DNA of 29,232 nt from a virus: the IMG/VR virus record IMGVR_UViG_3300020187_000153, positions 1 to 29,232 of that record. One strand, given 5' to 3'. Below, piece after piece: positions 6,944 to 28,682 of the stretch. The notes beneath the pieces were generated by a model. That model had not been told where the DNA came from. It saw only the letters and a program-made list of their open reading frames with translations, and searched no databases. Each line of letters starts with the position of its first letter. The first letter of the stretch is position 1. The translations under genes were made by a program, and so were the position numbers.

Positions 6944-7120
6944 CTACTTACCACCCTTCTTCCTGCACTTAGCAATCGCCCCGCTGGCATAGGCACTGGG
7001 GAAGACTTTGTACTGGCGTTTCACCTTGTGGTAGCACGCGTCCTTGACCGTGCCGCCCTTCTTGTAACCTTTGCTACCAGAAGAGCGGCCACAGCCACCG
7101 GATTTGTAGTACCTACGCAT
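6944..7120 (-). CDS. Small Cys/Lys/Gly protein of the KKGG group
   Basis: A 58-residue frame starting MRRYYKSGGCGRSSGSKGYK and ending IAKCRKKGGK. The ATG overlaps the TGA of the upstream repeat protein as TGATG, so translation is probably coupled. It has three cysteines and two KKGG boxes. It resembles the start of the 103-residue protein at 8498-8809 (MRCYYKKGG), so the two belong to one family of tiny basic proteins in this cluster. Function unknown. Confidence 0.7.
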   Translation of the reverse strand: MRRYYKSGGCGRSSGSKGYKKGGTVKDACYHKVKRQYKVFPSAYASGAIAKCRKKGGK

Positions 7121-8124
7121 CACCGTATCTTACAGACTTTGCCGCCACGGGCCATGCCGTAACCACGTATTTTGTTGGCTTTCTTTACCTTGGCCGTGCC
7201 ACCGCTCGACGACTTCTTAACCGCTTTTACCTTACCACCTTTTTTCATCCGGAACATCCCCGTGTCGTTAGTAGGGCCTTCCGCCACGTTTACGGAGGGA
7301 GCAGGGGTCGGTTGAGGTTGAGGTACCGGCTGCATCGGCGTAGGCATCGAACGTACTCCGCTCCGGTCCGGACTCGCCAGCGGTTGCACCGGTTGCACCG
7401 GTTTCTTCGTACGTCGATACCCCGTATCGTCAATAGGGCCCGGATTTACCAGTTTCCTCGGTTGCACCGGTTGCACCGGTTTCTTCGTACGTCGATACCC
7501 CGTATCGTCAATAGAACCCAGATTTACCCGATCCCCCGGTTTCACCGTTTTCTTCGGTTGCACCGGTTTCTTCGTACGTCGATACCCCGTATCGTCAATA
7601 GAACCCAGATTCACCCGATCCCCCGGTTTCATCGTTTTCTTCGTACGTCGATACCCCGTATCGTCAATAGAACCCAGATTTACCCGATCCCCCGGTTTCA
7701 CCGTTTTCTTCGGTTTCACCGTTTTCTTCGTACGTCGATACCCCGTATCGTCAATAGAACCCAGATTTACCCGATCCCCCGGTTTCACCGTTTTCTTCGG
7801 TTTCACCGTTTTCTTCGTACGTCGATACCCCGTATCGTCAATAGAACCCAGATTTACCCGATCCCCCGGTTTCACCGTTTTCTTCGGTTGCGCCGGTTTC
7901 TTCGTACGTCGATACCCCGTATCGTCAATAGAACCCAGATTTACCCGATCCCCCGGTTTCACCGGTTTCACCGGCTTTGTAGTTGTCTTAGCTGCGTTTC
8001 GCTTATCTCTGGCAGCAGTCCGTGCAGCCCTATCTTTGGCCTTTGCAGCTTGTCTGGCAGCAATCCGTGCAGCCCTATCTTTGGCCTTTGTAGCTTGTCT
8101 AACGGGTCTACGCATCGAGGTCAT
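7120..8124 (-). CDS. Lys/Arg-rich tandem-repeat protein
   Basis: 334 residues, extremely basic. Residues 1-45 contain two copies of KAKDRAARxAAR. Residues about 55-240 hold seven units carrying IDDTGYRRTKK, six of them preceded by GDRVNLGS, joined by proline-lysine linkers (PKKTVKP, PVQPVQP). An eighth decayed unit (TNDTGMFRMKKGGK) follows. The C-terminus RGYGMARGGKVCKIR matches the end of the neighbouring protein at 8134-8478. No enzymatic domain is visible. Disordered basic repeats suggest binding to DNA, RNA or an acidic surface. It is placed in the late operon among small basic proteins. Confidence 0.8.
   Translation of the reverse strand: MTSMRRPVRQATKAKDRAARIAARQAAKAKDRAARTAARDKRNAAKTTTKPVKPVKPGDRVNLGSIDDTGYRRTKKPAQPKKTVKPGDRVNLGSIDDTGYRRTKKTVKPKKTVKPGDRVNLGSIDDTGYRRTKKTVKPKKTVKPGDRVNLGSIDDTGYRRTKKTMKPGDRVNLGSIDDTGYRRTKKPVQPKKTVKPGDRVNLGSIDDTGYRRTKKPVQPVQPRKLVNPGPIDDTGYRRTKKPVQPVQPLASPDRSGVRSMPTPMQPVPQPQPTPAPSVNVAEGPTNDTGMFRMKKGGKVKAVKKSSSGGTAKVKKANKIRGYGMARGGKVCKIR
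7390..7975 (-). repeat. Tandem coding repeat, ~87-nt period (one 69-nt unit)
   Basis: On the plus strand each unit contains CGTACGTCGATACCCCGTAT followed by CGTCAATAGAACCCAG. Most units are 87 nt (29 codons); the one ending near 7630 is 69 nt. Near-identity at silent positions indicates recent expansion by slippage or recombination. Confidence 0.85.
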
Positions 8125-17949: not shown

Positions 17950-18288
17950 GGGGTTGTAAAAACAGGGTGGGGGGTATCGAGAATTGGGGTTTCGTTGTGT
18001 TTGGTGGTAGGTTTTGTGGAAATTGAAAAAATACAGAATTGTTCGAGTAGATTAGTAATACAGAGGTAGTGCGGAGTCCCACTGAGCCAAGCGGGGGGCG
18101 GGGGTAGGGTATGGTCGCGCCAATGTGCCTTTTAGGGAATCCCCTAAACTATCGAGACGTGCCATGCGATGCCAAGCCGTGTCGTTTTGTGCGGATTTAT
18201 CTATATCAAAACATGTTATCAGATGCCATAAAGGTTACATCGAAGGGCAATCAAGCTGCTTCGAATTGTTCTTGAAAGGAACACAACC
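17950..18288. other. Divergent control region without genes
   Basis: 339 nt between the late (minus) and plus operons. It contains the upstream part of the late promoter, a G-rich stretch (GGGGGGCGGGGGTAGGGT, about 18091-18109), and palindrome copy 1 at 18131-18148. I see no strong plus-strand promoter; TTGAAA near 18024 has only weak partners. The plus-strand gene at 18289 has the ribosome site GAAAGGAACACAACC. Confidence 0.6.
18131..18148. repeat. 18-bp palindrome, copy 1 (GAATC core)
   Basis: TTTAGGGAATCCCCTAAA: 7-bp arms around AATC. It lies in the divergent control region, 140 nt before the ATG at 18289. Confidence 0.9.
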
Positions 18289-18801
18289 ATGGGTAATTTT
18301 ACCTTCCAATCCGAACTAGCCAACGCAACTACCGCGCACGTAAAGGCAATCACTGCCGCCGAGAAAAGCGCGGTCAAAATGCTGGACGTCTACCGCGCGT
18401 TGAAGATTCCATACACACACATGATATCGCCGCGCTCAAAGGATAGCACGTGCCCAAGCCAAGAATGGCGCGACGGCCAACGTGACGCAATCGTCGCGGG
18501 ATTTAGCGCCGATGAAAAGCGTATCTTGAAAGCGCCCACAGCGTCGCTGGACGATGCCGCCAAGAAATACAAGGCTAAGACGCAAGCCAAGATTGGTAGT
18601 GTCATGAAAGACATTAAGAACGGTCTTATGCGCAATCCGGACGGCAAAACGCCGACGCAAGCCAAAACAGGTCTGGACAAGGCAAACGCCGACTTCCAAG
18701 CGTATCTTGGCAAGGTCCAGAAATACGAGGATATGCCGTTCGATGTTGTCGAAATGGTAGCACTGCTCAACGCAATGGGCAGTAAGTTTAACCTCAAGTA
18801 A
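18289..18801 (+). CDS. Unknown helical protein, first plus-strand gene
   Basis: 170 residues, basic and helical: MGNFTFQSELANATTAHVKA, IPYTHMISPRSKDSTCPSQE, WRDGQRDAIVAGFSADEKRI and KYKAKTQAKIGSVMKDIKNG. No membrane segment or catalytic motif. GAAAGGAACACAACC before ATG supports the start. Codon choice looks different from the later plus genes (more GCC/CGC and GAC), but I have not measured this. As the first gene beside the divergent region it is a candidate early host-takeover or regulatory protein, inferred from position only. Confidence 0.75.
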   Translation: MGNFTFQSELANATTAHVKAITAAEKSAVKMLDVYRALKIPYTHMISPRSKDSTCPSQEWRDGQRDAIVAGFSADEKRILKAPTASLDDAAKKYKAKTQAKIGSVMKDIKNGLMRNPDGKTPTQAKTGLDKANADFQAYLGKVQKYEDMPFDVVEMVALLNAMGSKFNLK

Positions 18802-18808
18802 ATCAACG

Positions 18809-18829
18809 GCGCGTCCCAATGGGGCGCGC
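18809..18829 (+). promoter_or_regulatory. Intercistronic RNA hairpin
   Basis: GCGCGTCCC-AAT-GGGGCGCGC, a 9-bp stem with one G-U pair. There is no U tract, so it is not a standard terminator. It is followed by CCAACCCAACCCAACCCA (tandem CAACC) and then the ribosome site of the next gene. It may stabilise the upstream message or modulate the next start. Confidence 0.55.
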
Positions 18830-18865
18830 TATCCAACCCAACCCAACCCATAGGAATCTAAGACC

Positions 18866-19126
18866 ATGAAAAATCCGACAACCAACGCCCACAACCTTTA
18901 CGCCTCAATCGTCGCCGTTATGCAAGGCGACGCACAGGAAATGTTAACCACCGCCAAATACCTCACCAACCTACATAACATTGACCCCTATTGGCGCGAC
19001 GATGCAGTGAACTTAGCATTGGGTGTTCTCGAGCGTGACGCGCGCGACTTACTAGAATGTGGCGACGAACCTGACCCTATGCTGCACGACGTGCTGGCAT
19101 GCATTCACGAATACCATAACACATAA
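18866..19126 (+). CDS. Small helical protein, unknown function
   Basis: 86 residues: MKNPTTNAHNLYASIVAVMQ, GDAQEMLTTAKYLTNLHNID, VNLALGVLERDARDLLECGD. Predicted all-helical with an acidic C-terminus. AGGAATCTAAGACC precedes ATG. It is 64 nt after the 170-residue gene and immediately upstream of a strong terminator, so the pair form a two-gene operon. No family recognised. Confidence 0.7.
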   Translation: MKNPTTNAHNLYASIVAVMQGDAQEMLTTAKYLTNLHNIDPYWRDDAVNLALGVLERDARDLLECGDEPDPMLHDVLACIHEYHNT

Positions 19127-19132
19127 TCAATC

Positions 19133-19163
19133 GGGCTGGACCTTCGGGTCTGGCCCTTTTTTT
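19133..19163 (+). terminator. Rho-independent terminator with TTCG loop
   Basis: GGGCTGGACC (19133-19142), TTCG, GGTCTGGCCC (19147-19156), then seven T. A 10-bp stem with two G-U pairs. It closes the two-gene operon at 18289-19126. Confidence 0.88.
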
Positions 19164-19188
19164 GTGTCCGCCGTTTGGCTGGACGCTC

Positions 19189-19216
19189 GATACCAGTTCC
19201 TTAGATAGCGTAGCGC
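19189..19216 (+). repeat. 28-bp direct repeat, copy A
   Basis: Begins GATACCAGTTCCTTAG and ends TAGCGTAGCGC. It lies between the terminator and the small-RNA promoter, without a palindrome beside it. Copies B and C differ by at most one base. Confidence 0.9.
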
Positions 19217-19223
19217 CATGCTC

Positions 19224-19252
19224 TTGCAAAGTGTAACGCCTTGGCATATACT
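19224..19252 (+). promoter_or_regulatory. Promoter of the predicted small RNA
   Basis: TTGCAA (19224-19229), a 17-nt spacer, TATACT (19247-19252) with G at -13 (GGCATATACT). A good sigma70-type match, about 7 nt upstream of the predicted RNA start. Confidence 0.6.
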
Positions 19253-19258
19253 GGCACT

Positions 19259-19317
19259 GCATTGCACCACAATGCCTCAAACTGTCTAACTAGGCCCGCT
19301 TCGGCGGGTCTTTTTTT
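19259..19317 (+). ncRNA. Predicted ~59-nt small RNA
   Basis: A transcript from about 19259 to 19317 is bounded by the promoter at 19224-19252 and a terminator (GGCCCGC at 19293-19299, TTCG, GCGGGTC at 19304-19310, seven T). The body includes GCATTGCACCACAATGC (19259-19275), which can itself fold as GCATTG / CAATGC with a 5-nt loop, so the RNA would be two hairpins joined by a short linker. No reading frame with a ribosome site fits inside. A regulatory or copy-control RNA near the candidate origin is inferred. It could also be a decoy or antisense to a distant target. Confidence 0.55.
19293..19317 (+). terminator. Terminator of the small RNA, TTCG loop
   Basis: A 7-bp stem GGCCCGC / GCGGGTC with one G-U pair, a TTCG loop and seven T. 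Same architecture as the terminator 160 nt upstream. Confidence 0.85.
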
Positions 19318-19319
19318 GT

Positions 19320-19337
19320 TTTAGGGTATTCCCTAAA
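19320..19337. repeat. 18-bp palindrome, copy 2 (no GANTC)
   Basis: TTTAGGGTATTCCCTAAA. It follows the small-RNA terminator directly and lies 5 nt before 28-bp repeat copy B. Confidence 0.85.
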
Positions 19338-19342
19338 CGCCT

Positions 19343-19370
19343 GATACCAGTTCCTTAGATAGCGTAGCGC
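19343..19370 (+). repeat. 28-bp direct repeat, copy B
   Basis: Identical to copy A over 28 nt, placed 5 nt after palindrome copy 2. Confidence 0.9.
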
Positions 19371-19527
19371 GTCGCGCCATAACACATTACATACAAAGAT
19401 AGTCCTTCTGTGTAACCAGATTTTCTGTTGACTCTACTTTGTTAAGGCATACAGCAGCAGTGCTGTGTAGTTCACCAGATGTAACCTGTTACCACGAGAG
19501 GGTGATACCAATGTCAGCATTACTGCG

Positions 19528-19545
19528 TTTAGGGAATTCCCTAAA
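19528..19545. repeat. 18-bp palindrome, copy 3 (perfect, GAATTC core)
   Basis: TTTAGGGAATTCCCTAAA, the only fully symmetrical copy. It lies 6 nt before 28-bp repeat copy C, the same arrangement as copy 2 with B. Confidence 0.9.
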
Positions 19546-19551
19546 ACATCT

Positions 19552-19579
19552 GATACCAGTTCCTTAGATAGCGTTGCGC
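19552..19579 (+). repeat. 28-bp direct repeat, copy C
   Basis: Differs from copies A and B by one base (GCGTTGCGC for GCGTAGCGC). It marks the left border of the iteron region. Confidence 0.9.
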
Positions 19580-19990
19580 CTACCGTGTTCCAAACGGGTT
19601 AGGGCACGTTTGTGCAGCAAACTGCAATGGGCGACAGTTCGCCCTGAAAAAATAACATTAAGAACACCCGCTAAGTCATTGATGTTCCCCGTGTTCCAGA
19701 AAAATAGGGTCAAAAACAGGGTTAAGTCATTGAAAAGAAAGGTTGTTCCATTTGTTCCAAGATATATAGTATATATATAAACCTTTTATTGGACTCTGTG
19801 TGTAAGCACTTACACAGATAAACCCGTTCAGATTCCGAGGGTATACTTTTGGAACATTTGAACTTTGGATCATTCCTTTAAAATCAAGGACTTACAGCGA
19901 CACGTGTTGGAACATACAGTCACAAACCACGGAACACCACCCCTCACCACGAAACACCACCACGTGACAGGCAAATCTTGGAACAGGGCA
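19580..19990. other. Candidate replication origin (mirrored iterons, AT-rich core)
   Basis: TGTTCC(A/C) occurs at 19586, 19683, 19692, 19744 and 19753. Its reverse complement (T/C)GGAACA occurs at 19850, 19908, 19930 and 19979. The two sets point at each other across an AT-rich stretch (GATATATAGTATATATATAA, 19761-19780), a likely unwinding element, and an 18-bp inverted repeat TGTGTAAGCACTTACACA (19799-19816). TAAGTCATTGA also repeats at 19672 and 19732. No protein gene with a ribosome site fits here. This is the classic layout of an iteron origin, but no initiator gene is identified in the window. Confidence 0.55.
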
Positions 19991-20054
19991 CTTCCCCTGC
20001 AATATCAACCACTTGCACACAACACTGTCACAGAACCCCACGAAACACCCTTTC

Positions 20055-20083
20055 TTGACACACCCCGATACTTGTGATACTGT
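20055..20083 (+). promoter_or_regulatory. Early promoter P1, sigma70-like
   Basis: TTGACA (20055-20060), 17-nt spacer, TACTGT (20078-20083). The -10 region and its left flank (ACTTGTGATACTGTG) are almost the same as in promoter P2 at 20508. It would drive the zinc-ribbon gene; palindrome copy 4 lies about 40 nt downstream of the start point, in an operator-like place. Confidence 0.7.
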
Positions 20084-20129
20084 GTTATGAGTAGGACATT
20101 AAAAATCCTGCCAAAGACCAGCTCAACCT

Positions 20130-20147
20130 TTTAGGGAATCCCCTAAA
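20130..20147. repeat. 18-bp palindrome, copy 4 (GAATC core)
   Basis: TTTAGGGAATCCCCTAAA, with symmetry extending to 20 bp (T and A at the outside). It lies between promoter P1 and the ATG at 20177. Confidence 0.9.
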
Positions 20148-20176
20148 ACCCAAAAGACCAACCAATGGAGACCAAC

Positions 20177-20458
20177 ATGACTTGCTTGAATGTAAAAGAA
20201 CTACGCACCCCCGACGCATCGGACGCTCTGATGGACCCGATCAATGAAACACACTTCGAAGATTCCGAGTGCCATGAGTGCGGTGAGACGTTCCCAATGA
20301 AACGTGCCATGCTTGGGTACAACGTGTGCCTACAGTGTGGTGACATCGTCGCTGCCAGCCAACGTGCAAGCTGGTGCATAGTGGGCCTTCCCAAGCAGGG
20401 CGCTACGCTCATCACCAACAAAGCAGACCTGCTGCACCTGAACCAGAAACCACGGTGA
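20177..20458 (+). CDS. Small zinc-ribbon protein
   Basis: 93 residues. Cys32-x2-Cys35 and Cys51-x2-Cys54 (CHEC ... CLQC) form a zinc ribbon around FPMKRAMLGYNV. The C-terminus includes GATLITNKADLLHLNQ. Similar early proteins with a ribbon followed by an LITxxxLL motif are present in podoviruses, to my recollection, with no settled function. GGAGACCAAC before the ATG at 20177 decides the start; the earlier ATG at 20165 lies inside that ribosome site. First gene of the P1 transcript. Confidence 0.75.
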   Translation: MTCLNVKELRTPDASDALMDPINETHFEDSECHECGETFPMKRAMLGYNVCLQCGDIVAASQRASWCIVGLPKQGATLITNKADLLHLNQKPR

Positions 20459-20507
20459 CAGCATAACTTGACACCGTAACGTACTACACACCACAGGATC
20501 ACATAAC

Positions 20508-20536
20508 TTGACACAGGCTACTACTTGTGGTACTGT
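20508..20536 (+). promoter_or_regulatory. Early promoter P2, sigma70-like
   Basis: TTGACA (20508-20513), 17-nt spacer, TACTGT (20531-20536). A second copy of CATAACTTGACAC lies 40 nt upstream (20462-20474) with no good -10, perhaps a decayed duplicate. It drives the DUF3150-like gene and probably the ATPase-VWA cassette. Confidence 0.72.
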
Positions 20537-20572
20537 GGTGTTACGTTACTAATACAACCAATGGAGACTAAC

Positions 20573-21496
20573 ATGACTGACCAACTACACGAAAACATCC
20601 TCAACGGTTTAGGGGATTCCCTAAAAACCAACGCACCGAGCATCGCATCAGCTGCCATGGTGGTAGACTTCAACGCCTCTGTGTGGACAGCCCGCAAGAA
20701 AGACCGCAAGGCATCGGATGACATCACCAACATGAACTACGCTGCCAAGGGTGTGGCCAACGTGTCTAAGAACTTACTAGGTGACTGCGAGGAATTACGT
20801 GCGGTGCAGAAGTTCGCGGCCAACGTGCGCAACATACACTACAGCATGACAATGCCGTGGTCGGACAACGGCTCGCGACTGCTCACCACCAAACAGTATT
20901 TCAGATACAACGAGGTGATGACTGACTTGCAGAACGAGTTTCGTCGGCTCGTGGATGTGTTCTTGCAGGAGTATGAGTGGGAGATCACGCAAGCCCAAGC
21001 CAAGCTGGGTGACATGTTTAACCGTGACGAGTACCCCACACGCGACAGTCTCGAGTCCAAGTTTGGGTTCCGTATATCCTACACACCACTGCCAGAGGCG
21101 GGTGACTTCCGTATCGACATTGGTAACGAGGCTATGACGCAGATCAAGTCACAGTACGAGACACACTACACGCAGGCAATACAGACAGCCATGAACGACA
21201 TATGGCACAAGCTGCACGATAACCTCACCACACTCGTGCGACAGCTCGACGTCAATGACGAGGGTAAGGGCAACCGCCTGTATGATAGTGTGTTTGACCG
21301 TGCGCTCGAACTGACCGAGATGCTCGGAACCTGTAACGTGACACAGGACACACAGATGGAGGCCATGCGACAGAAACTCGAGCAGGCACTCTATGGTCTC
21401 AACCTCGAGCAGATCAAGAACTCACCCACGCTGCGTGAAGATACACGCAAGAACCTCAACGCTGCACTCGCAGCCCTACCAAGTCTGGATATGTAA
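20573..21496 (+). CDS. DUF3150-like protein, partner of MoxR/VWA cassette
   Basis: 307 residues, almost entirely helical: an N-terminal section (SAAMVVDFNASVWTARKKDR), a central section (YFRYNEVMTDLQNEFRRLVD; FLQEYEWEITQAQAKLGDMF) and a C-terminal helical region (RALELTEMLGTCNVTQ and LEQALYGLNLEQIKNSPTLR). The length, the W-T-A-R-K-K-D-x-K phrase and its position just upstream of a MoxR-type ATPase recall DUF3150 proteins of phages and plasmids. This assignment is from memory. Palindrome copy 5 lies inside codons 12-18. The start at 20573 is set by GGAGACTAAC; the leader is nearly identical to that of the zinc-ribbon gene. It ends in TAATG, overlapping the next ATG. Confidence 0.75.
   Translation: MTDQLHENILNGLGDSLKTNAPSIASAAMVVDFNASVWTARKKDRKASDDITNMNYAAKGVANVSKNLLGDCEELRAVQKFAANVRNIHYSMTMPWSDNGSRLLTTKQYFRYNEVMTDLQNEFRRLVDVFLQEYEWEITQAQAKLGDMFNRDEYPTRDSLESKFGFRISYTPLPEAGDFRIDIGNEAMTQIKSQYETHYTQAIQTAMNDIWHKLHDNLTTLVRQLDVNDEGKGNRLYDSVFDRALELTEMLGTCNVTQDTQMEAMRQKLEQALYGLNLEQIKNSPTLREDTRKNLNAALAALPSLDM
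20608..20625. repeat. 18-bp palindrome, copy 5 (GATTC core, inside coding sequence)
   Basis: TTTAGGGGATTCCCTAAA, the only copy in reverse orientation. It lies 35 nt after the ATG at 20573 and is read in that gene as part of GLGDSLK. Confidence 0.9.
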
Positions 21497-21594
21497 TGAG
21501 ACTACGCGACATCATTGGAGACATCATCGGTGTGATCGCCATCTTCGGCGGCGGCTACGCCTTCCTCATCATCGGCTACGGCCTCGGCTACTAA
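21496..21594 (+). CDS. Tiny membrane protein
   Basis: 32 residues: MRLRDIIGDIIGVIAIFGGG then YAFLIIGYGLGY. A positive N-terminus (R2, R4) precedes a single hydrophobic segment (about 10-32). The ATG overlaps the stop of the DUF3150-like gene (TAATG), so translation is coupled. Small single-span proteins could anchor the ATPase/VWA complex at the membrane or act in holin-like fashion; both are guesses. It has no cysteine and no signal-peptidase site. Confidence 0.65.
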   Translation: MRLRDIIGDIIGVIAIFGGGYAFLIIGYGLGY

Positions 21595-21602
21595 CAACAG
21601 AG

Positions 21603-21620
21603 TTTAGGGAATCCCCTAAA
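21603..21620. repeat. 18-bp palindrome, copy 6 (GAATC core)
   Basis: TTTAGGGAATCCCCTAAA, between the tiny membrane protein stop and the ATPase ATG (17 nt downstream). Confidence 0.9.
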
Positions 21621-21637
21621 AACAAACGGAGACTACA

Positions 21638-22735
21638 ATGACTAATCAAGCACATCAAATGTATGCACTGGGCCTCGACCAGATCACAGATGCAATCAAG
21701 GCGGTAGGCCACAAGCGCACCATACTGGTGCAGGGTGACATGGGCACAGGCAAATCATCCATACTCAAGACACTGGCAACTGAGATGCCCGACCACCTGC
21801 CATGTTACTTCGACTGCACAACCAAAGACCTCGGTGACATCACGATACCTAACATCGCCAAGCTAGATGACGGGACAGGCTATGTCACATACCTGACCAA
21901 CGAGGAATTGGGTGTGCACAACAACCAACCGATTGCCCTGATGGTAGACGAGTTTGGTAAGGCTAACCCCGCCGTGAAGCTGGCCCTGCTACGTCTTATC
22001 CTCGAGCGTAAGATCGGCAGCTACACGCTGCACCCCGACAGTGTGATCTTCGCCACGACCAACAAAGGGTCAGAGGGTGTGGGTGATATGTTACCACCAC
22101 ATGCGCGTAACCGTATGACCGTGGTGCAGTCACGCAAACCCAACAACATCGAGTGGATCGAGTGGGGTATCAACAGCGGTATCGACCACAGTCTACTTGG
22201 CTGGTGTAAGGACAACCCACACCTGTTTGCATCCTTCGAGGACGTGAAAGACCCTGACGAGAACCCCTATATCTTCCACCCCAAACAGCAACGTGCGGCC
22301 TTTGTTACCCCTCGCTCGCTCGAGGCTGCGTCTGACATCCTACATGAACGTCACTTGTTTGATGACCAGACACTCACGGGTATGCTGATGGGCACTATCG
22401 GTGACCGTGGTGCGATGGACCTGATGGCCTTTGTGAAGCTGTCCGACCAGCTGCCTAGCTTGCAGTCTATCAAGGATGACCCGATGAACGCCAAGGTTCC
22501 CGAGAGTGCAGCTGCCGTGTGTATGGTGGTGTATCGCTCGCTCGCGGCAATGGAGTCTAACTGGCTCAATGCGTGGATGGACTACATGCCGAGGCTCGAC
22601 CGTGAAGCGCAGGGTATGTTCGCCAATGGTGTGCGCGCCCCCAAGTATTCCAAGCAGTCTATGGTGATGACCAACAAGAAGTTCACGCAGTGGGCCATGG
22701 ACAACAACTATATGTTCGCAGCGGATAAGAAGTGA
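21638..22735 (+). CDS. MoxR-type AAA+ ATPase
   Basis: 365 residues. Walker A GDMGTGKSS (33-41), Walker B IALMVDEFGKA (about 99-109), sensor 1 IFATTN (137-142) and arginines in HARNRM (155-160) identify an AAA+ ATPase of the MoxR/CobS-like type. Such ATPases work with VWA-domain partners to insert metals or remodel target complexes. GGAGACTACA precedes ATG. The VWA protein is two genes downstream, so the pair matches the known MoxR-VWA gene order. The C-terminal lid includes TPRSLEAASDILHE. Target unknown. Confidence 0.85.
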   Translation: MTNQAHQMYALGLDQITDAIKAVGHKRTILVQGDMGTGKSSILKTLATEMPDHLPCYFDCTTKDLGDITIPNIAKLDDGTGYVTYLTNEELGVHNNQPIALMVDEFGKANPAVKLALLRLILERKIGSYTLHPDSVIFATTNKGSEGVGDMLPPHARNRMTVVQSRKPNNIEWIEWGINSGIDHSLLGWCKDNPHLFASFEDVKDPDENPYIFHPKQQRAAFVTPRSLEAASDILHERHLFDDQTLTGMLMGTIGDRGAMDLMAFVKLSDQLPSLQSIKDDPMNAKVPESAAAVCMVVYRSLAAMESNWLNAWMDYMPRLDREAQGMFANGVRAPKYSKQSMVMTNKKFTQWAMDNNYMFAADKK

Positions 22736-22744
22736 GGAGATAAC

Positions 22745-22915
22745 ATGACTAAAACTTACTACGTGACAGTGGAAGGCATTGTAGCGCGGGAGTTCCGCGT
22801 CGATGCAGAGAACTCATATCAAGCAGGGGAATGGGCCAAAGCCGATTTCAAAAACGAACTGGGCACTGACGTGGCTCAAGTAATCAGAGTAAACAAGGAG
22901 AAGACCAATGACTAA
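22745..22915 (+). CDS. Small protein of unknown function
   Basis: 56 residues: MTKTYYVTVEGIVAREFRVD, AENSYQAGEWAKADFKNELG, then TDVAQVIRVNKEKTND. An alpha/beta pattern resembling a small beta-beta-alpha unit; no motif. GAGGAGATAAC precedes ATG. It overlaps the next gene start by 8 nt. Probably part of the ATPase operon. Confidence 0.65.
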   Translation: MTKTYYVTVEGIVAREFRVDAENSYQAGEWAKADFKNELGTDVAQVIRVNKEKTND

Positions 22916-23423
22916 GCAATGGGCAGAAAAAGAAGTAGTGACACTGGGTAAACTACGGCGCAGTGGCACGTCATACCGAACTATTGGTGAGATACTTGGG
23001 CGGTCCACCGCATCGTGCCGACAAAAAGCGTTCCATCTGGGTGTCGCTAAACCACATCGCAAAGAGCAGCCTGCGCAGGAACAACAAAGGAAAAGACCAA
23101 TGGCTAAACGTAAGAATACCAAGTGGACCAAGGAACTGGATGCGGAACTGGTATCACTGAGAGAGCTGGGTGTGAAACCGCGTGACGTTGCTACCATCAT
23201 GAAGCTACCGCGCTCTGTAATCTACAGCCGCAGTGCCACACTCGGTGTGACGAAGACCAGTGCGCAGCTCGAGATGGACCTGCAGGTAGCACCCGCTACC
23301 GAACCGACCAAACAGGTAGCACCCGCTACCAAAACAGAGTTTAGGGAATCCCCTAAAACACAAATCGACCAACCCAAACCAAAACCCACATGGTGGAAGC
23401 AGATGATGTGGTGGAGAAACTGA
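22908..23423 (+). CDS. Double GcrA-like/HTH DNA-binding protein
   Basis: 171 residues with two tandem tri-helical units: residues 5-46 (WAEKEVVTLGKLRRSGTSYR ... AFHLGV) and 73-114 (WTKELDAELVSLRELGVKPR ... SATLGV). Both follow the W-E-L-L-L-G-x-S-I-L-S-R-LG pattern of the GcrA N-terminal domain and related Myb/HTH proteins. In Alphaproteobacteria GcrA activates genes with GANTC-methylated promoters. An internal ATG at 23100 has its own ribosome site (AAAGGAAAAGACC), so a 107-residue single-domain form may also be made. The C-terminal linker contains two APAT repeats and palindrome copy 7. The tail is W-rich. Transcriptional regulation is inferred. Confidence 0.72.
   Translation: MTKQWAEKEVVTLGKLRRSGTSYRTIGEILGRSTASCRQKAFHLGVAKPHRKEQPAQEQQRKRPMAKRKNTKWTKELDAELVSLRELGVKPRDVATIMKLPRSVIYSRSATLGVTKTSAQLEMDLQVAPATEPTKQVAPATKTEFRESPKTQIDQPKPKPTWWKQMMWWRN
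23285..23330 (+). repeat. Two identical hairpins in the HTH gene
   Basis: GGTAGCACCCGCTACC occurs at 23285-23300 and 23315-23330: perfect 6-bp stems with ACCC loops, 30 nt apart, in frame and encoding VAPAT twice. Palindrome copy 7 begins 9 nt later. Confidence 0.85.
23340..23357. repeat. 18-bp palindrome, copy 7 (GAATC core, inside coding sequence)
   Basis: TTTAGGGAATCCCCTAAA, read in the HTH gene as FRESPK and placed 67 nt before the ATG of the VWA gene. Confidence 0.9.
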
Positions 23424-23424
23424 T

Positions 23425-24621
23425 ATGCTATCAATAGGTAAACAACTTACACCCGAGCAACGGCTATCCAAGGCCGTTGTTGACATCATGGGTAGAGCGC
23501 AAGCCCTGTCAGGTGTCATCATGATCGGTGATCGCACAGTAGAACACGATGAGGCCAAGGTTCCTACAGCCTGCACCAACGGACGTGACGAGATGTATGG
23601 TGCTGAGTTTATGGAACGGCTCAACGATGCTGAGTTGCGGTTCCTCGTCCTGCACGAGGTGTATCACAAGCTGTATCGTCATCTGACAACGTGGCGACAC
23701 CTCTACAAAGAGAACCCACGCATGGCCAACGTAGCCTGTGACTATGTCATCAACGACAAGATCATGTCCGAGTATGGCAAAGATGGCTGGGCCAAGATGC
23801 CCGAGGGTGGGTGCTACGACCCCAAGTATTCTGGGTGGGACACCGCTCAAGTTTACAATGACCTCAAGCAGGATCAGGATGACGACGATGATGGCCAAGG
23901 TGACAGCCAACCCCAAGGGTTCGATGAGCATGACTGGGATGGTGCGCAGGAGATGAGCGCAGACGAGCAGCGTGAACTGGCCCGAGATATTGACGAGGCT
24001 GTGCGTCAAGGTGCGTTGATCGCAGGTAAGATGGGTAGCGGTGGTGATCGTAACCTCGACGAACTCATGCAGCCTCAAGTGGATTGGCGTGAGGTGTTGC
24101 GTGACTTCGTGCAGACAACCTGTGCTGGCACTGACTACTCTACATGGCGACGTCCAAGCAGACGGTATATAGGTGCGGGTGTCTACATGCCTTCGGGTAT
24201 CAGCGAGCAGGTGGGTGAACTTGTGGTGGCTATCGACACATCAGGTTCCATCGGTGGACGTGAGCTGTCTGCGTTCCTGTCCGAGGTCAAGGCTGTGTGT
24301 GACACGGTGCACCCCGACAAGCTGCGCCTGTTATACTGGGACACCAAGGTCTGTCGTGACGAGGTGTATGAGGTTAACGACCAAGACGATCTGGTTAACT
24401 CTACCAAACCAGCAGGCGGTGGTGGCACATGTGTTGAGTGTGTCCCCGAGTATCTGCGTGAGCACAATATCAACCCGCAAGCCTGTATCGTCTTAACAGA
24501 TGGCTACTTGTATGGCGGCTGGGGCCAGTGGGCTAACCCTGTGTTGTGGTGTGTGCTCGACAATGAACGTGCCAAGCCCGACGTGGGTACGGCTGTGCAT
24601 ATTAAATCAAGGGAGATGTGA
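23425..24621 (+). CDS. Metallopeptidase-like/VWA protein (DUF2201 type)
   Basis: 398 residues. An N-terminal domain carries the zinc-protease motif HEVYH (77-81) in LRFLVLHEVYHKLYRH. A disordered acidic linker follows (DQDDDDDGQGD, about 150-160). The C-terminal VWA-like domain has the MIDAS motif DTSGS (271-275), a G-rich loop with Thr (GGGGT, 331-335) and TDG (358-360). This matches DUF2201 proteins, whose domain order is putative metallopeptidase then VWA-like. They are partnered with MoxR ATPases. GGAGAAACTGAT precedes ATG. Catalytic activity is unproven, although the HExxH is intact. Likely partner of the ATPase at 21638. Confidence 0.87.
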   Translation: MLSIGKQLTPEQRLSKAVVDIMGRAQALSGVIMIGDRTVEHDEAKVPTACTNGRDEMYGAEFMERLNDAELRFLVLHEVYHKLYRHLTTWRHLYKENPRMANVACDYVINDKIMSEYGKDGWAKMPEGGCYDPKYSGWDTAQVYNDLKQDQDDDDDGQGDSQPQGFDEHDWDGAQEMSADEQRELARDIDEAVRQGALIAGKMGSGGDRNLDELMQPQVDWREVLRDFVQTTCAGTDYSTWRRPSRRYIGAGVYMPSGISEQVGELVVAIDTSGSIGGRELSAFLSEVKAVCDTVHPDKLRLLYWDTKVCRDEVYEVNDQDDLVNSTKPAGGGGTCVECVPEYLREHNINPQACIVLTDGYLYGGWGQWANPVLWCVLDNERAKPDVGTAVHIKSREM

Positions 24622-24622
24622 G

Positions 24623-25021
24623 ATGGGGTATTACAGTGAAGTTCACATCGCCGTGGCGTTTGCCAATGCGGACGACCTCAAGGAAGTTGTGGCGGTCTAC
24701 ACTATGGACCCACGAGTGCAGAAGCATAACCTGTTACAGGAGCAGTGGGACGTGCAAGAGGACAACATCCTGTATTATCACGCTGACTATGTGAAGTGGT
24801 ATCCTAACTACGAAGAGGTGGAGGGTATCGAGCACATGCTGCATCTGGCTGATAAGTTCTATGAAGAGCGTGACATGGCTGTGGCCTATCGGTTCATCCG
24901 TCTCGGCGAAGAGAATACAGATACGGAGGATAGATACGAGCACGGAGGTGACGATGGCACCCTGATCAAGAAACTGTTAAACGGCATGTCAATAACCAGA
25001 CAAGTGGAGATAGCACTATGA
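24623..25021 (+). CDS. Conserved phage protein, unknown function
   Basis: 132 residues: MGYYSEVHIAVAFANADDLK and VHIAVAFANADDLKEVVAVY, then KWYPNYEEVEGIEHMLHLAD, acidic. The MGYYSxV start is seen in several phage proteins of unknown function, in my recollection. AGGGAGATGTGAG before ATG at 24623 sets the start. It overlaps the next gene as ATGA. No enzymatic motif. Confidence 0.7.
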   Translation: MGYYSEVHIAVAFANADDLKEVVAVYTMDPRVQKHNLLQEQWDVQEDNILYYHADYVKWYPNYEEVEGIEHMLHLADKFYEERDMAVAYRFIRLGEENTDTEDRYEHGGDDGTLIKKLLNGMSITRQVEIAL

Positions 25022-25191
25022 AGAAAGAGATTAACTGCCCCGAGTGTGATGGCACTGGCGACTGCGAATACGAACGTGCAGTGCCCATGTCAAACTCAAA
25101 CCCCTATGGCTACCTCGAGGATTACTGGGCCGACTGCGAGAACTGCGGTGGAACTGGTATCATAGAGGCTAACACAGAAGACGACGAATGA
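25018..25191 (+). CDS. Small zinc-knuckle protein (DnaJ-type motifs)
   Basis: 57 residues with two CxxCxGxG motifs: CPECDGTG (7-14) and CENCGGTG (40-47). These match the zinc-binding repeats of DnaJ's central domain, where they bind zinc and unfolded protein. The intervening loop is AVPMSNSNPYGYLEDYW. The ATG overlaps the previous stop (ATGA). A protein-binding or adaptor role is inferred; it lacks a J-domain. Confidence 0.7.
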   Translation: MKKEINCPECDGTGDCEYERAVPMSNSNPYGYLEDYWADCENCGGTGIIEANTEDDE

Positions 25192-25193
25192 AC

Positions 25194-25211
25194 TTTAGGG
25201 AATCCCCTAAA
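25194..25211. repeat. 18-bp palindrome, copy 8 (GAATC core)
   Basis: TTTAGGGAATCCCCTAAA, 2 nt after the stop of the zinc-knuckle gene and 20 nt before the ATG at 25232. Confidence 0.9.
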
Positions 25212-25231
25212 AAACTAATGGAGACTAATCA

Positions 25232-26266
25232 ATGGCACTAACATTCACAAACTTTGAATCATTCAAAGAAGTAGAGGCGGCGTACAACAACATCACACCC
25301 CTACGTGGTAGCACCAACGCTGGTAAGGACATCCGACCTATCGGTGATCGCAATCGTAAGTGGGAGCGTATCGTCAAGATCAGCCCCAACTGCTACGCGC
25401 TATCTGAGGGCTATCACTTCGGTGACGAACACTTCGGCCAGTGGTTTTATGGTGCGAACTTCACACCCACACTGAAAGGCATGGAGAAGTATGCACCCAT
25501 CGTGTGGCGTAAGAAACGTGATGGCACAGAAGAAGTTACATTACGCAACGGGTTTGGTGAGAGTGCGCACATCGGACGGTATCAATTCCTATACCGCCAT
25601 ACACCCAAGGGTATGTGGTACCGCAATCGCAACAATAAACACTTCATCCAGAACGGGGCTACAGACCACTACCACTACATTGCCAAGACACGCACTGCGC
25701 CGAAACCCATGTACGACGCGATCATGAAAAACACGTCAACACATTACTGGCAGAAGCGCCACAAGAAGTGGGTTATGGCGCACGACGACAACTCCGCGGT
25801 TACGTTCCGTAAGAACGAGCACGGTGGCTGGGATCACGTCGAGGGCACAGGCAGAAACTTAGAAGAAGCCAAGAGACCAACAGTCAAGAAGGAACTCAAA
25901 GCCAAATACAAAGACGCAATCAAGTCGTTCTTCGAGTGGGGTATGACCATGTCACCACTGCTACCGCTGGAAGACCGCGGCTATCGGCACACTCACTGGC
26001 ATGAGCTACAAGAGCATTTCGCAGTCAGACACAGCCCTGTGCGGGGACTGCCGAAACCCGTGGACCTGCGCAAAATCGTGTCGGACGAGGACCACCCAAT
26101 GCGCCTGTCACTGTGGGTTCTGTTTGCCGGTGACTGCACTGAAAGTGAGTGGGTTAAAAATCGCAAGTTTTACTGCAAGACCGTCGAGACTAAGGAAGAC
26201 CTGCAACGTGTGCGCTCACGCTACAACACGTTCATCAACAAAAAACTAGCCTTCATGACTAAGTAA
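25232..26266 (+). CDS. Unknown 344-residue phage protein
   Basis: An N-terminal region (FESFKEVEAAYNNITPLRGS) is followed by a beta-rich part (IVKISPNCYALSEGYHFGDE, GQWFYGANFTPTLKGMEKYA), an aromatic basic centre (GMWYRNRNNKHFIQNGATDH) and a C-terminal helical region (KELKAKYKDAIKSFFEWGMT). Rich in W, Y, H. GGAGACTAATCA before ATG matches the conserved leader of the other early genes. Proteins like this accompany the next gene in related phages, in my recollection, but no function is known. Confidence 0.72.
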   Translation: MALTFTNFESFKEVEAAYNNITPLRGSTNAGKDIRPIGDRNRKWERIVKISPNCYALSEGYHFGDEHFGQWFYGANFTPTLKGMEKYAPIVWRKKRDGTEEVTLRNGFGESAHIGRYQFLYRHTPKGMWYRNRNNKHFIQNGATDHYHYIAKTRTAPKPMYDAIMKNTSTHYWQKRHKKWVMAHDDNSAVTFRKNEHGGWDHVEGTGRNLEEAKRPTVKKELKAKYKDAIKSFFEWGMTMSPLLPLEDRGYRHTHWHELQEHFAVRHSPVRGLPKPVDLRKIVSDEDHPMRLSLWVLFAGDCTESEWVKNRKFYCKTVETKEDLQRVRSRYNTFINKKLAFMTK

Positions 26267-26281
26267 CCAAAGGATCAAATC

Positions 26282-27151
26282 ATGCCATACGAACATACCC
26301 CTGTAGCAGGACTACATATAGCTACCCGCACGCAACCATACCAACTAGAGGAGTTTGCCCAAGCCCTACGCCGAACCAACCGAAAGCTGAAGACAGAGCC
26401 GAGAGATGATACCTCTATGTGGGTGTATGCCGACGACGAACTCATGACACGTGGGTGGATTGGACACGGCAACTTTGGGCGCGCACGGCACGGTCAAAAC
26501 AAGTTTGTTGTATCTGCTCGAAGTATAACAAACTGCAAGTATGCAGATCACTCTGTGCAACATCATATGAAGATGTCTGTGAACATGGACCCAGTGTTGA
26601 AAGCTGCCAAAGGCCACCTGACCAAATACACCACGCATGAGGTGGAGAGGGTATACCGCCGCGCGGTTCGAGAGAAAGTCAACAACAAGCGTGACACTCT
26701 GAGAAGCCAAGAGCTTAGTGCGTTGTCCAGCACAGGGCTGTCGGTATACGGAACATCAAACGGAAAGATAATACAGGAGTTAAGACACCTAGTCATGTCG
26801 GGACACACGTTCGCTGACCCGCAGTTTGGGCAGGACGTACAGCTGTTGTTGGAGGCAAAGGAAGCCCTGAGTTGTCTACCTAACGTAGTGCCTATGGACT
26901 TTGTACACATCTACCCAACCCCATGGGAGACCCGTGCTGACATACTGGCTGTGCCTGACGCACTGTCAGCTTTTTACGGTGGCACACCCACACAACTTAC
27001 ATGGGTGGCTGAGGAACTGCCCGAGAGTGTCATGGGTAAGATCGCTGTCATGCAGATGTGTGAGGACGGGCAGTATGTCGACGGTGTTGGCTTGCGCGTA
27101 AACGAGAGCACGTTCTACCTACACAAAGAAAGTGATGATACATGGAAGTAA
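26282..27151 (+). CDS. Unknown 289-residue phage protein
   Basis: Mostly helical in the first two thirds (EEFAQALRRTNRKLKTEPRD, MSVNMDPVLKAAKGHLTKYT, RRAVREKVNNKRDTLRSQEL) and more mixed later (PMDFVHIYPTPWETRADILA). AAGGATCAAATC before ATG is a good ribosome site; the gap from the previous gene is 15 nt. No motif recognised. It overlaps the next gene by 10 nt. Confidence 0.7.
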   Translation: MPYEHTPVAGLHIATRTQPYQLEEFAQALRRTNRKLKTEPRDDTSMWVYADDELMTRGWIGHGNFGRARHGQNKFVVSARSITNCKYADHSVQHHMKMSVNMDPVLKAAKGHLTKYTTHEVERVYRRAVREKVNNKRDTLRSQELSALSSTGLSVYGTSNGKIIQELRHLVMSGHTFADPQFGQDVQLLLEAKEALSCLPNVVPMDFVHIYPTPWETRADILAVPDALSAFYGGTPTQLTWVAEELPESVMGKIAVMQMCEDGQYVDGVGLRVNESTFYLHKESDDTWK

Positions 27152-27393
27152 CCGATGATAATACCTACCGCGTGTTGATACAGAACAATACCGAACACGT
27201 CGAGGTGATGTGTTTTGGTATGGATAGTGTTGACCCCGACGCGGAAGGTAGGTACAATTCTGTACACGACTTACCCATTTGGATTCAGACTAAGCTATCT
27301 ATGTTAATGATGCTGGACGTACCGCCCCCTCTAAACGAGGTCAAAGGTGTGGGTAGCCGCATAGGTCCGTCACTCTACTGGGTATACAAATAG
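27142..27393 (+). CDS. Small acidic protein, unknown function
   Basis: 83 residues: MEVTDDNTYRVLIQNNTEHV, EVMCFGMDSVDPDAEGRYNS, then HDLPIWIQTKLSMLMMLDVP. A beta N-terminal half and a helical second half. It overlaps the previous gene by 10 nt and ends 2 nt before palindrome copy 9. Function unknown. Confidence 0.68.
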   Translation: MEVTDDNTYRVLIQNNTEHVEVMCFGMDSVDPDAEGRYNSVHDLPIWIQTKLSMLMMLDVPPPLNEVKGVGSRIGPSLYWVYK

Positions 27394-27395
27394 CT

Positions 27396-27413
27396 TTTAG
27401 GGAATCCCCTAAA
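27396..27413. repeat. 18-bp palindrome, copy 9 (GAATC core)
   Basis: TTTAGGGAATCCCCTAAA, with symmetry extending to 20 bp (27395-27414). It lies between the 83-residue gene and the VRR-NUC gene, 33 nt before its ATT. Confidence 0.9.
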
Positions 27414-27446: not shown

Positions 27447-27749
27447 ATTACACCTGAAGCTAAAGTTAAAAAAGTTGTCGTCAAACACCTCAAAGACTTA
27501 GGTGCGTACTATTTCTACCCCGCTACAGGTGGATACGGAAAGAGTGGGGTTCCCGATATTGTCGGGTGCCACGCAGGTCTATTCTTTGGGTTCGAATGTA
27601 AGGCTGGCAAGAACACAGCCACGCCCTTGCAGGAGAAGAACCTAAGAGAGATCAAAGCAGCTGGTGGGTTAGACCTCATCGTAAACGAAGACAACATGCA
27701 CGATGTATCAGACATCCTGACATCGTGGGCCAACATCAAACAAAGCTAA
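27447..27749 (+). CDS. VRR-NUC family nuclease with ATT start
   Basis: 100 residues. Motifs: GGYGKSGVPDIVG (28-40) with the catalytic Asp of PDIV, FECKAG (49-54) with the E-x-K pair, and Gln62. This is the PD-(D/E)xK signature of the VRR-NUC family, which cleaves branched or flapped DNA; stand-alone phage versions are common. No ATG, GTG or TTG lies near the ribosome site. AAGGAG (27434-27439) is followed by 7 nt and then ATT, and the sequence after it (TPEAKVKK) matches the usual N-terminus of this family, so ATT is called as the start. It ends 10 nt before the next gene. Confidence 0.75.
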   Translation: MTPEAKVKKVVVKHLKDLGAYYFYPATGGYGKSGVPDIVGCHAGLFFGFECKAGKNTATPLQEKNLREIKAAGGLDLIVNEDNMHDVSDILTSWANIKQS

Positions 27750-28644: not shown

Positions 28645-28682
28645 AAAAGCCCGCGCACCTTAATTGGTCGCGCGGGCTTTTT
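28645..28682. terminator. Bidirectional terminator between convergent operons
   Basis: AAAGCCCGCGC (28646-28656) pairs perfectly with GCGCGGGCTTT (28670-28680) across a 13-nt loop; A and T runs flank both sides. It ends the early block on the plus strand and the right-hand genes on the minus strand. Confidence 0.9.

Follow-up and report, generated by a model that had tools for sequence, protein, structure and literature searches.

A lineage-specific palindrome repeated through the early block of uncultivated phages, and S1 as its candidate cognate protein

Introduction

What role does a palindrome play that recurs nine times in one half of a marine phage genome, and which protein reads it? 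The question arises from the IMG/VR virus record IMGVR_UViG_3300020187_000153, whose entire 29,232 bases form the window analysed here. Its plus-strand half, the early block, carries genes for a DksA-like zinc finger, a DUF3150-like protein, an AAA ATPase, a VWA/metallopeptidase and a VRR-NUC-like nuclease, and its minus-strand half carries terminase, portal and other virion genes. A sequence-only reading of this DNA had proposed that the palindrome TTTAGGG-N4-CCCTAAA forms a phage-wide operator or RNA hairpin set that co-ordinates the early block. A co-ordinating operator set is well supported: the sites are exact in sequence, keep their positions and co-evolve with a single phage gene, the first of the early block, whose product is labelled S1 here. 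In our best explanation, to which we give a probability of roughly 60%, the nine palindromes are stoperator-like DNA operators of S1, which would be a phage-encoded, autoregulated early regulator.

Results and discussion

Nine palindromes confined to the early block

A pattern search recovered all nine copies at the positions listed in the sequence-only reading, each with both 7-nucleotide (nt) arms perfect (Table 1). Shuffled sequence yielded a mean of 0.73 copies per shuffle and never reached nine, and no tenth copy was found in the window even with three mismatches allowed. The centre is AATC in six copies and TATT, AATT or GATT in the remaining three. All nine lie within positions 18131-27413 and none in the minus-strand late region, as the sequence-only reading had stated; in long related contigs (up to 62 kb) palindromes are likewise limited to about 10-15 kb of early block. 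Its finer claims also held, with copies 4, 6, 8 and 9 standing 17-33 nt before a start (apparently an unusual ATT codon at 27447 for copy 9) and two copies, 5 (20608) and 7 (23340), lying inside coding sequence. No Rfam match was found in the window. Single-copy matches of the 18-mer pattern occur in the viral collection, where many are expected by chance given its size.

Site dialects at conserved positions

A search with the window's ATPase identified 80 related uncultivated loci, a set extended via S1 proteins and a second ATPase to about 200, not all of them independent and some from the same contig. Repeated palindromes were then found by de novo palindrome counts per locus. Almost every related locus has one strongly repeated palindrome of lineage-specific sequence, typically in 3-11 copies and usually in 7-11 where the block is intact. 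At least a dozen such sequences, referred to here as dialects, were recognised, including TTTAGGG-N4-CCCTAAA, GTTAGTG-N3-CACTAAC, GTTAGGGANTCCCTAAC, GTTAGTCCNNGGACTAAC and GTTAGTC-N3-GACTAAC, in addition to TTCGGGCANNTGCCCGAA, TTTACGGAATTCCGTAAA, TTTACGCAATTGCGTAAA and the GTTATAG and GTAGTG types. The expectation that relatives carry the motif at equivalent places was borne out in the nearest relatives; in more distant ones a palindrome is present there, but its sequence differs.

The sites are strongly non-random with respect to gene starts rather than scattered, and their contexts are equivalent between dialects. For example, 139 of 182 loci have a site 0-120 nt upstream of the ATPase start (median distance 19 nt); the same holds for the F20 start in 70/90 (median 18), the helicase start in 36/42 (median 33) and the VWA start in 88/172, while the DUF3150 gene has a site either upstream of its start or within its first 200 nt in 161 of 183 loci. 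The S1 gene is also among those preceded by a site in relatives. In contrast, no site occurs within 200 nt of the F16, F8, F13, F9, F14 or F5 starts in any locus. Relative to sigma70-like promoters, sites fall 50-175 nt downstream of the -35 hexamer, with almost none from -175 to +50. It is scarcely credible that these repeats are neutral, selfish or accidental: some copies do fall within coding sequence, but chance is excluded by the shuffles, and many lineages retain positions and palindrome as the sequence changes in step.

Some genomes carry more than one dialect. In L132, of the GTTAGTG dialect, two TTTACGGAATTCCGTAAA sites persist at places where the TTTACGG phage L125 has sites too, while L166 and L180 each hold sites of two dialects; these mixed sets look like relics and transitional states. 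Outside the related loci, the early block of the window had no blastn match in the phage collection, and the cultured phages with the best TerL matches (HTVC027P, HTVC023P, 023Pt_psg01 and DSL-LC04; 50 kb each) had neither a comparable repeated palindrome nor an annotated ATPase/VWA block.

S1 follows the dialect

The fast-evolving S1 gene was found in all 127 loci that retain both flanking genes, and among universal block genes it alone differs in type in line with the dialect. Pairwise identity predicted shared dialect best for S1 (area under the curve 0.94), followed by DUF3150 (0.90), ATPase (0.77), VWA (0.75) and TerL (0.65). Similarly, where parsimony allows no fewer than 14 dialect changes, the S1 tree required 17 and the ATPase tree 26.

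The comparison of two near-isogenic loci, L124 and L369, is the decisive case for dialect switching with S1, as read from their sequences. Their terS, ATPase and DUF3150 products are 99%, 98% and 88% identical and the flanking DNA 86-97%, whereas S1 is only 17% identical, and every site has been switched in place from GTTAGTG-N3-CACTAAC to TTTACGGAATTCCGTAAA, with no cross-dialect site in either locus. Across the whole block of G010 and G001, identity of the core genes is mostly 60-93%, with one at 45%, and only S1 and a few small open reading frames (ORFs), two of them directly after S1, are without a match; among universal block genes, S1 alone is unmatched.

Two other proteins were considered as the cognate partner, the MerR-like F10 and the helix-turn-helix (HTH) protein F13, and both were rejected: the recognition region of each is common across dialects and does not track them. 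More broadly, a host factor or another phage protein might read the sites, leaving the link to S1 a product of chance or hitch-hiking. Both F10 and F13 could plausibly bind DNA, and DUF3150, encoded near S1, correlates with dialect as well; however, such a reader is very unlikely given the shared recognition regions of F10 and F13, the replacement of S1 alone among universal block genes in near-isogenic switches and the concentration of covariation on one helix face of S1, described below.

A short stretch of S1 covaries with the sites

Dialects map to a short stretch of the S1 protein. Sites of the GTTAGTG type pair with the stretch YWQQQIGA[RK][RI][NG]DF, and both TTTAGGG and GTTAGGG sites pair with GS..KD[LI][KR]N, while for GTTAGTC sites S1 has K[IVM] in place of D[F]. 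Locus L169 combines an intermediate site, GTTAGGG, with an intermediate S1 protein, KYWQQQIGSKMKDLRNAL. In a set of 30 protein clusters whose sites are of the [GT]TTAG form, the strongest covariation linked base 7 to D106, base 6 to N105, and base 1 to R94, Q98 and their neighbours (permutation p about 0.002 each, from 500 permutations, with relatedness not fully corrected and the stretch itself selected post hoc).

Two S1 proteins were modelled with AlphaFold2 (pLDDT, the predicted local distance difference test score, 88 and 85); both models are all-helical and place the covarying stretch on one long helix, spanning residues 87-118 in one and 89-115 in the other. By helical spacing, residues 94, 98, 102, 105/106 and 109 would share one helix face and follow the order of the bases. 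A fold search in BFVD gave a best match at E 0.03, to an uncharacterised protein of an uncultured phage.

DNA operator or RNA hairpin

The sequence-only reading left open whether the palindromes are DNA operators or RNA hairpins. As hairpins in early mRNA leaders, they would be bound by S1 as an RNA-binding regulator of translation or termination. Every site does lie in a transcribed leader or 5′ end downstream of a promoter, and the transcript could form a 7-bp stem with a 3-4-nt loop whose sequence and length vary within one genome. However, symmetry is not confined to the stem but reaches to within 0-2 nt of the centre, through positions that would stay unpaired in RNA: the inner bases are AnnT in 88/117 TTTAGGG sites and 74/75 TTCGGGC sites, and AATT in 19/19 TTTACGG sites. 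Non-redundant sites comprise 671 exact and 67 one-mismatch copies, and 56 of these 67 mismatches are transversions, which would break pairing, and a G-U pair would remain in the transcript for just 7. In addition, the reverse complement of the centre is also used, though unevenly in some dialects, which show a strand bias. Owing to this inner symmetry, the intolerance of G-U pairs and the use of both centre orientations, sites that work as DNA are favoured, though not proven, and RNA hairpins appear distinctly unlikely.

Proposed mode of action

We infer that S1, as a symmetric and probably dimeric protein, would read both arms of the palindrome through its long helix, binding one site ahead of the S1 gene and others beyond the promoters of early operons, in leaders or 5′ ends. 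Bound S1 would most likely block or attenuate transcription elongation, as at stoperators, with a block to initiation also considered, and once enough S1 was present its own gene and the other early genes would be shut down. S1 may also repress an incoming or co-infecting phage of the same dialect, which would give dialects a reason to diversify. Site 1, in the divergent region beside the late operon, may let S1 influence late transcription as well.

That last position, together with the number and dispersal of the sites, would also suit an S1 that acts as an activator or organiser (in middle-gene activation, replication control or DNA compaction) instead of a repressor. Such a role is unlikely, as the sites are downstream of promoters, where activators seldom work, and are tied to particular gene starts.

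Several points weigh against S1-bound repressor sites. S1 had no match in Pfam or PHROGs, HTH families included, and the two models found no fold match in the PDB, nor did a PDB sequence search, so that the presumed DNA binding of S1 rests on covariation between sequences. Three or four clusters (L374, L380, L363 and L379) violate a simple residue code, and DUF3150 tracks the dialect fairly well too. GTTAGTG genomes mix 3- and 4-nt spacers, which a rigid dimer would not normally allow but an RNA loop readily would, and the strand bias of centres in some dialects points the same way. Finally, activation could still apply in place of repression.

A broader proposal, which we hold tentatively and consider possible though somewhat short of probable, is that S1 represents a new DNA-binding family with an unrelated fold, in which one continuous helix would read the bases of a half-site in order, and that the dialects form a system in non-lysogenic phages through which about ten operators change specificity together, competition with co-infecting relatives being the probable driver. 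As to lifestyle, 13 long contigs (several >60 kb, not all certainly complete) yielded neither a tyrosine nor a serine integrase, and a prophage search of 84,980 bacterial and archaeal genomes gave no confirmed relative of S1. Integration thus seems absent from these phages, which may still persist in other ways.

Other features of the window

The two clear promoters of the window are near-copies of one another. At the end of the plus-strand block (28645-28681), a perfect 12-bp inverted repeat, AAAAGCCCGCGC/GCGCGGGCTTTT, is likely a terminator. The VRR-NUC-like gene has an apparent and unusual ATT start (ATT ACA CCT GAA) after AAGGAGAGAGCCG; its counterparts in G001 and G010 begin with ATG, and that of L120 apparently also with ATT. 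In the other half, CGATAC...GTATCG repeats occur 69-87 nt apart at 7388-7910, inside an ORF at 7120-8124.

A second repeated element, GATACCAGTTCC, has six exact copies in the window (0.1 expected at up to one mismatch), at 19189, 19343 and 19552 on the plus strand and at 23144, 25150 and 27422 on the minus strand. The plus-strand copies are in noncoding leader, and the minus-strand copies yield complementary mRNA. Across relatives, GA[TA]ACCAGT occurs 247 times on the plus strand in the block of 105 loci versus 18 times outside it, often 0-10 nt after a palindrome, and is unchanged across dialects. A second DNA site and antisense pairing are both possible readings of this element.

Table 1 Palindromic sites, genes and promoters in the window
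Feature	Position	Strand	Context
Palindrome site 1	18131..18148	.	Between the divergent terS (-) and S1 (+) genes; intergenic, 140 nt ahead of S1 start
Palindrome site 2	19320..19337	.	Noncoding leader region
Palindrome site 3	19528..19545	.	Noncoding leader region
Palindrome site 4	20130..20147	.	Leader of DksA-like zinc-finger gene (20177-20458)
Palindrome site 5	20608..20625	.	Within 5′ end of DUF3150-like gene
Palindrome site 6	21603..21620	.	17 nt before ATPase start
Palindrome site 7	23340..23357	.	Low-conservation C-terminal part of small HTH gene (22908-23423); 67 nt before VWA/metallopeptidase gene
Palindrome site 8	25194..25211	.	20 nt before gene 25232-26266
Palindrome site 9	27396..27413	.	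33 nt before VRR-NUC-like nuclease gene
S1 gene	18289..18801	+	First gene of early block, divergent from terS; 170 aa (amino acids); long predicted helix at residues 89-115
DUF3150-like gene	20573..21496	+	Weak Pfam match
AAA ATPase gene (phrog_1297)	21638..22735	+	Marker gene for finding relatives
VWA/putative metallopeptidase gene (DUF2201, phrog_1314)	23425..24621	+	
VRR-NUC-like nuclease gene	27447-27749	+	Named from its own sequence, not from a family search
Sigma70-like promoter (TTGACA-17-TACTGT)	20055..20083	+	Upstream of site 4
Second promoter of the same type	20508..20536	+	Upstream of DUF3150-like gene and site 5

Relation to known systems and significance

Dispersed repressor sites within one phage genome are represented by the P1 c1 operators and the SPbeta SPBRE repeats, which belong to temperate phages, have other site architectures and are read by proteins unrelated to S1. 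Dispersed operators with a matched repressor are a known principle. The closest description concerns the Cluster A mycobacteriophages (L5, Bxb1), temperate phages in which up to about 30 stoperators per genome, asymmetric 13-bp sites in one orientation, are matched to a monomeric phage repressor, with both sequences diverging together, and in which the L5 repressor at stoperators blocks elongation (PMC6550527, PMC9283540). The phages studied here resemble them in that one site recurs many times in dispersed places, for the most part not at promoters, and in the joint divergence of site and protein among relatives; an elongation stop of the same kind would be compatible with sites downstream of promoters. 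In contrast to stoperators, the sites here are palindromic, 17-18 bp long, number about 10 per genome and are restricted to the early block, no integrase was detected, and S1 is helical and unrelated to the L5 and Bxb1 Rep proteins, with no match in Pfam, PHROG, PDB-sequence or fold searches. S1 also differs from known HTH phage repressors in having no recognisable HTH, and the HTH proteins that these phages do encode, F10 and F13, do not follow the dialect.

Cluster K mycobacteriophages, in the part of the published account considered here, carry asymmetric 13-bp start-associated sequences (SAS) at translation starts and extended ones (ESAS) that are imperfect 17-bp inverted repeats with a variable spacer (PMC3203893). 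These too lie just upstream of a subset of gene starts and are kept at orthologous genes, but motif and geometry differ, and that part of the account does not describe lineage-wide switching with one protein. The earlier statement that no described system has this motif therefore needs qualification, since dispersed sites with a matched repressor (PMC6550527) and start-associated repeats (PMC3203893) were already known; for the motif itself, the protein family and the integrase-less setting, no description was found in the literature searched, nor was one of a comparable lytic-phage system with the terms tried. As far as these tools show, novelty lies in the palindromic site set, the S1 family, the setting without a detected integrase and the scale on which sites switch in place.

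These loci provide about 100 natural regulator-operator pairs and include switches between near-isogenic phages, relic sites and genomes of mixed dialect. How the specificity of a repressor and of its scattered operators can change together is an old question that becomes directly studiable here, with a recognition code that can be read from nature. The findings further suggest immunity of a repressor type, or self-shutdown, in phages where no lysogeny module was detected, and S1 may reveal a new DNA-recognition fold.

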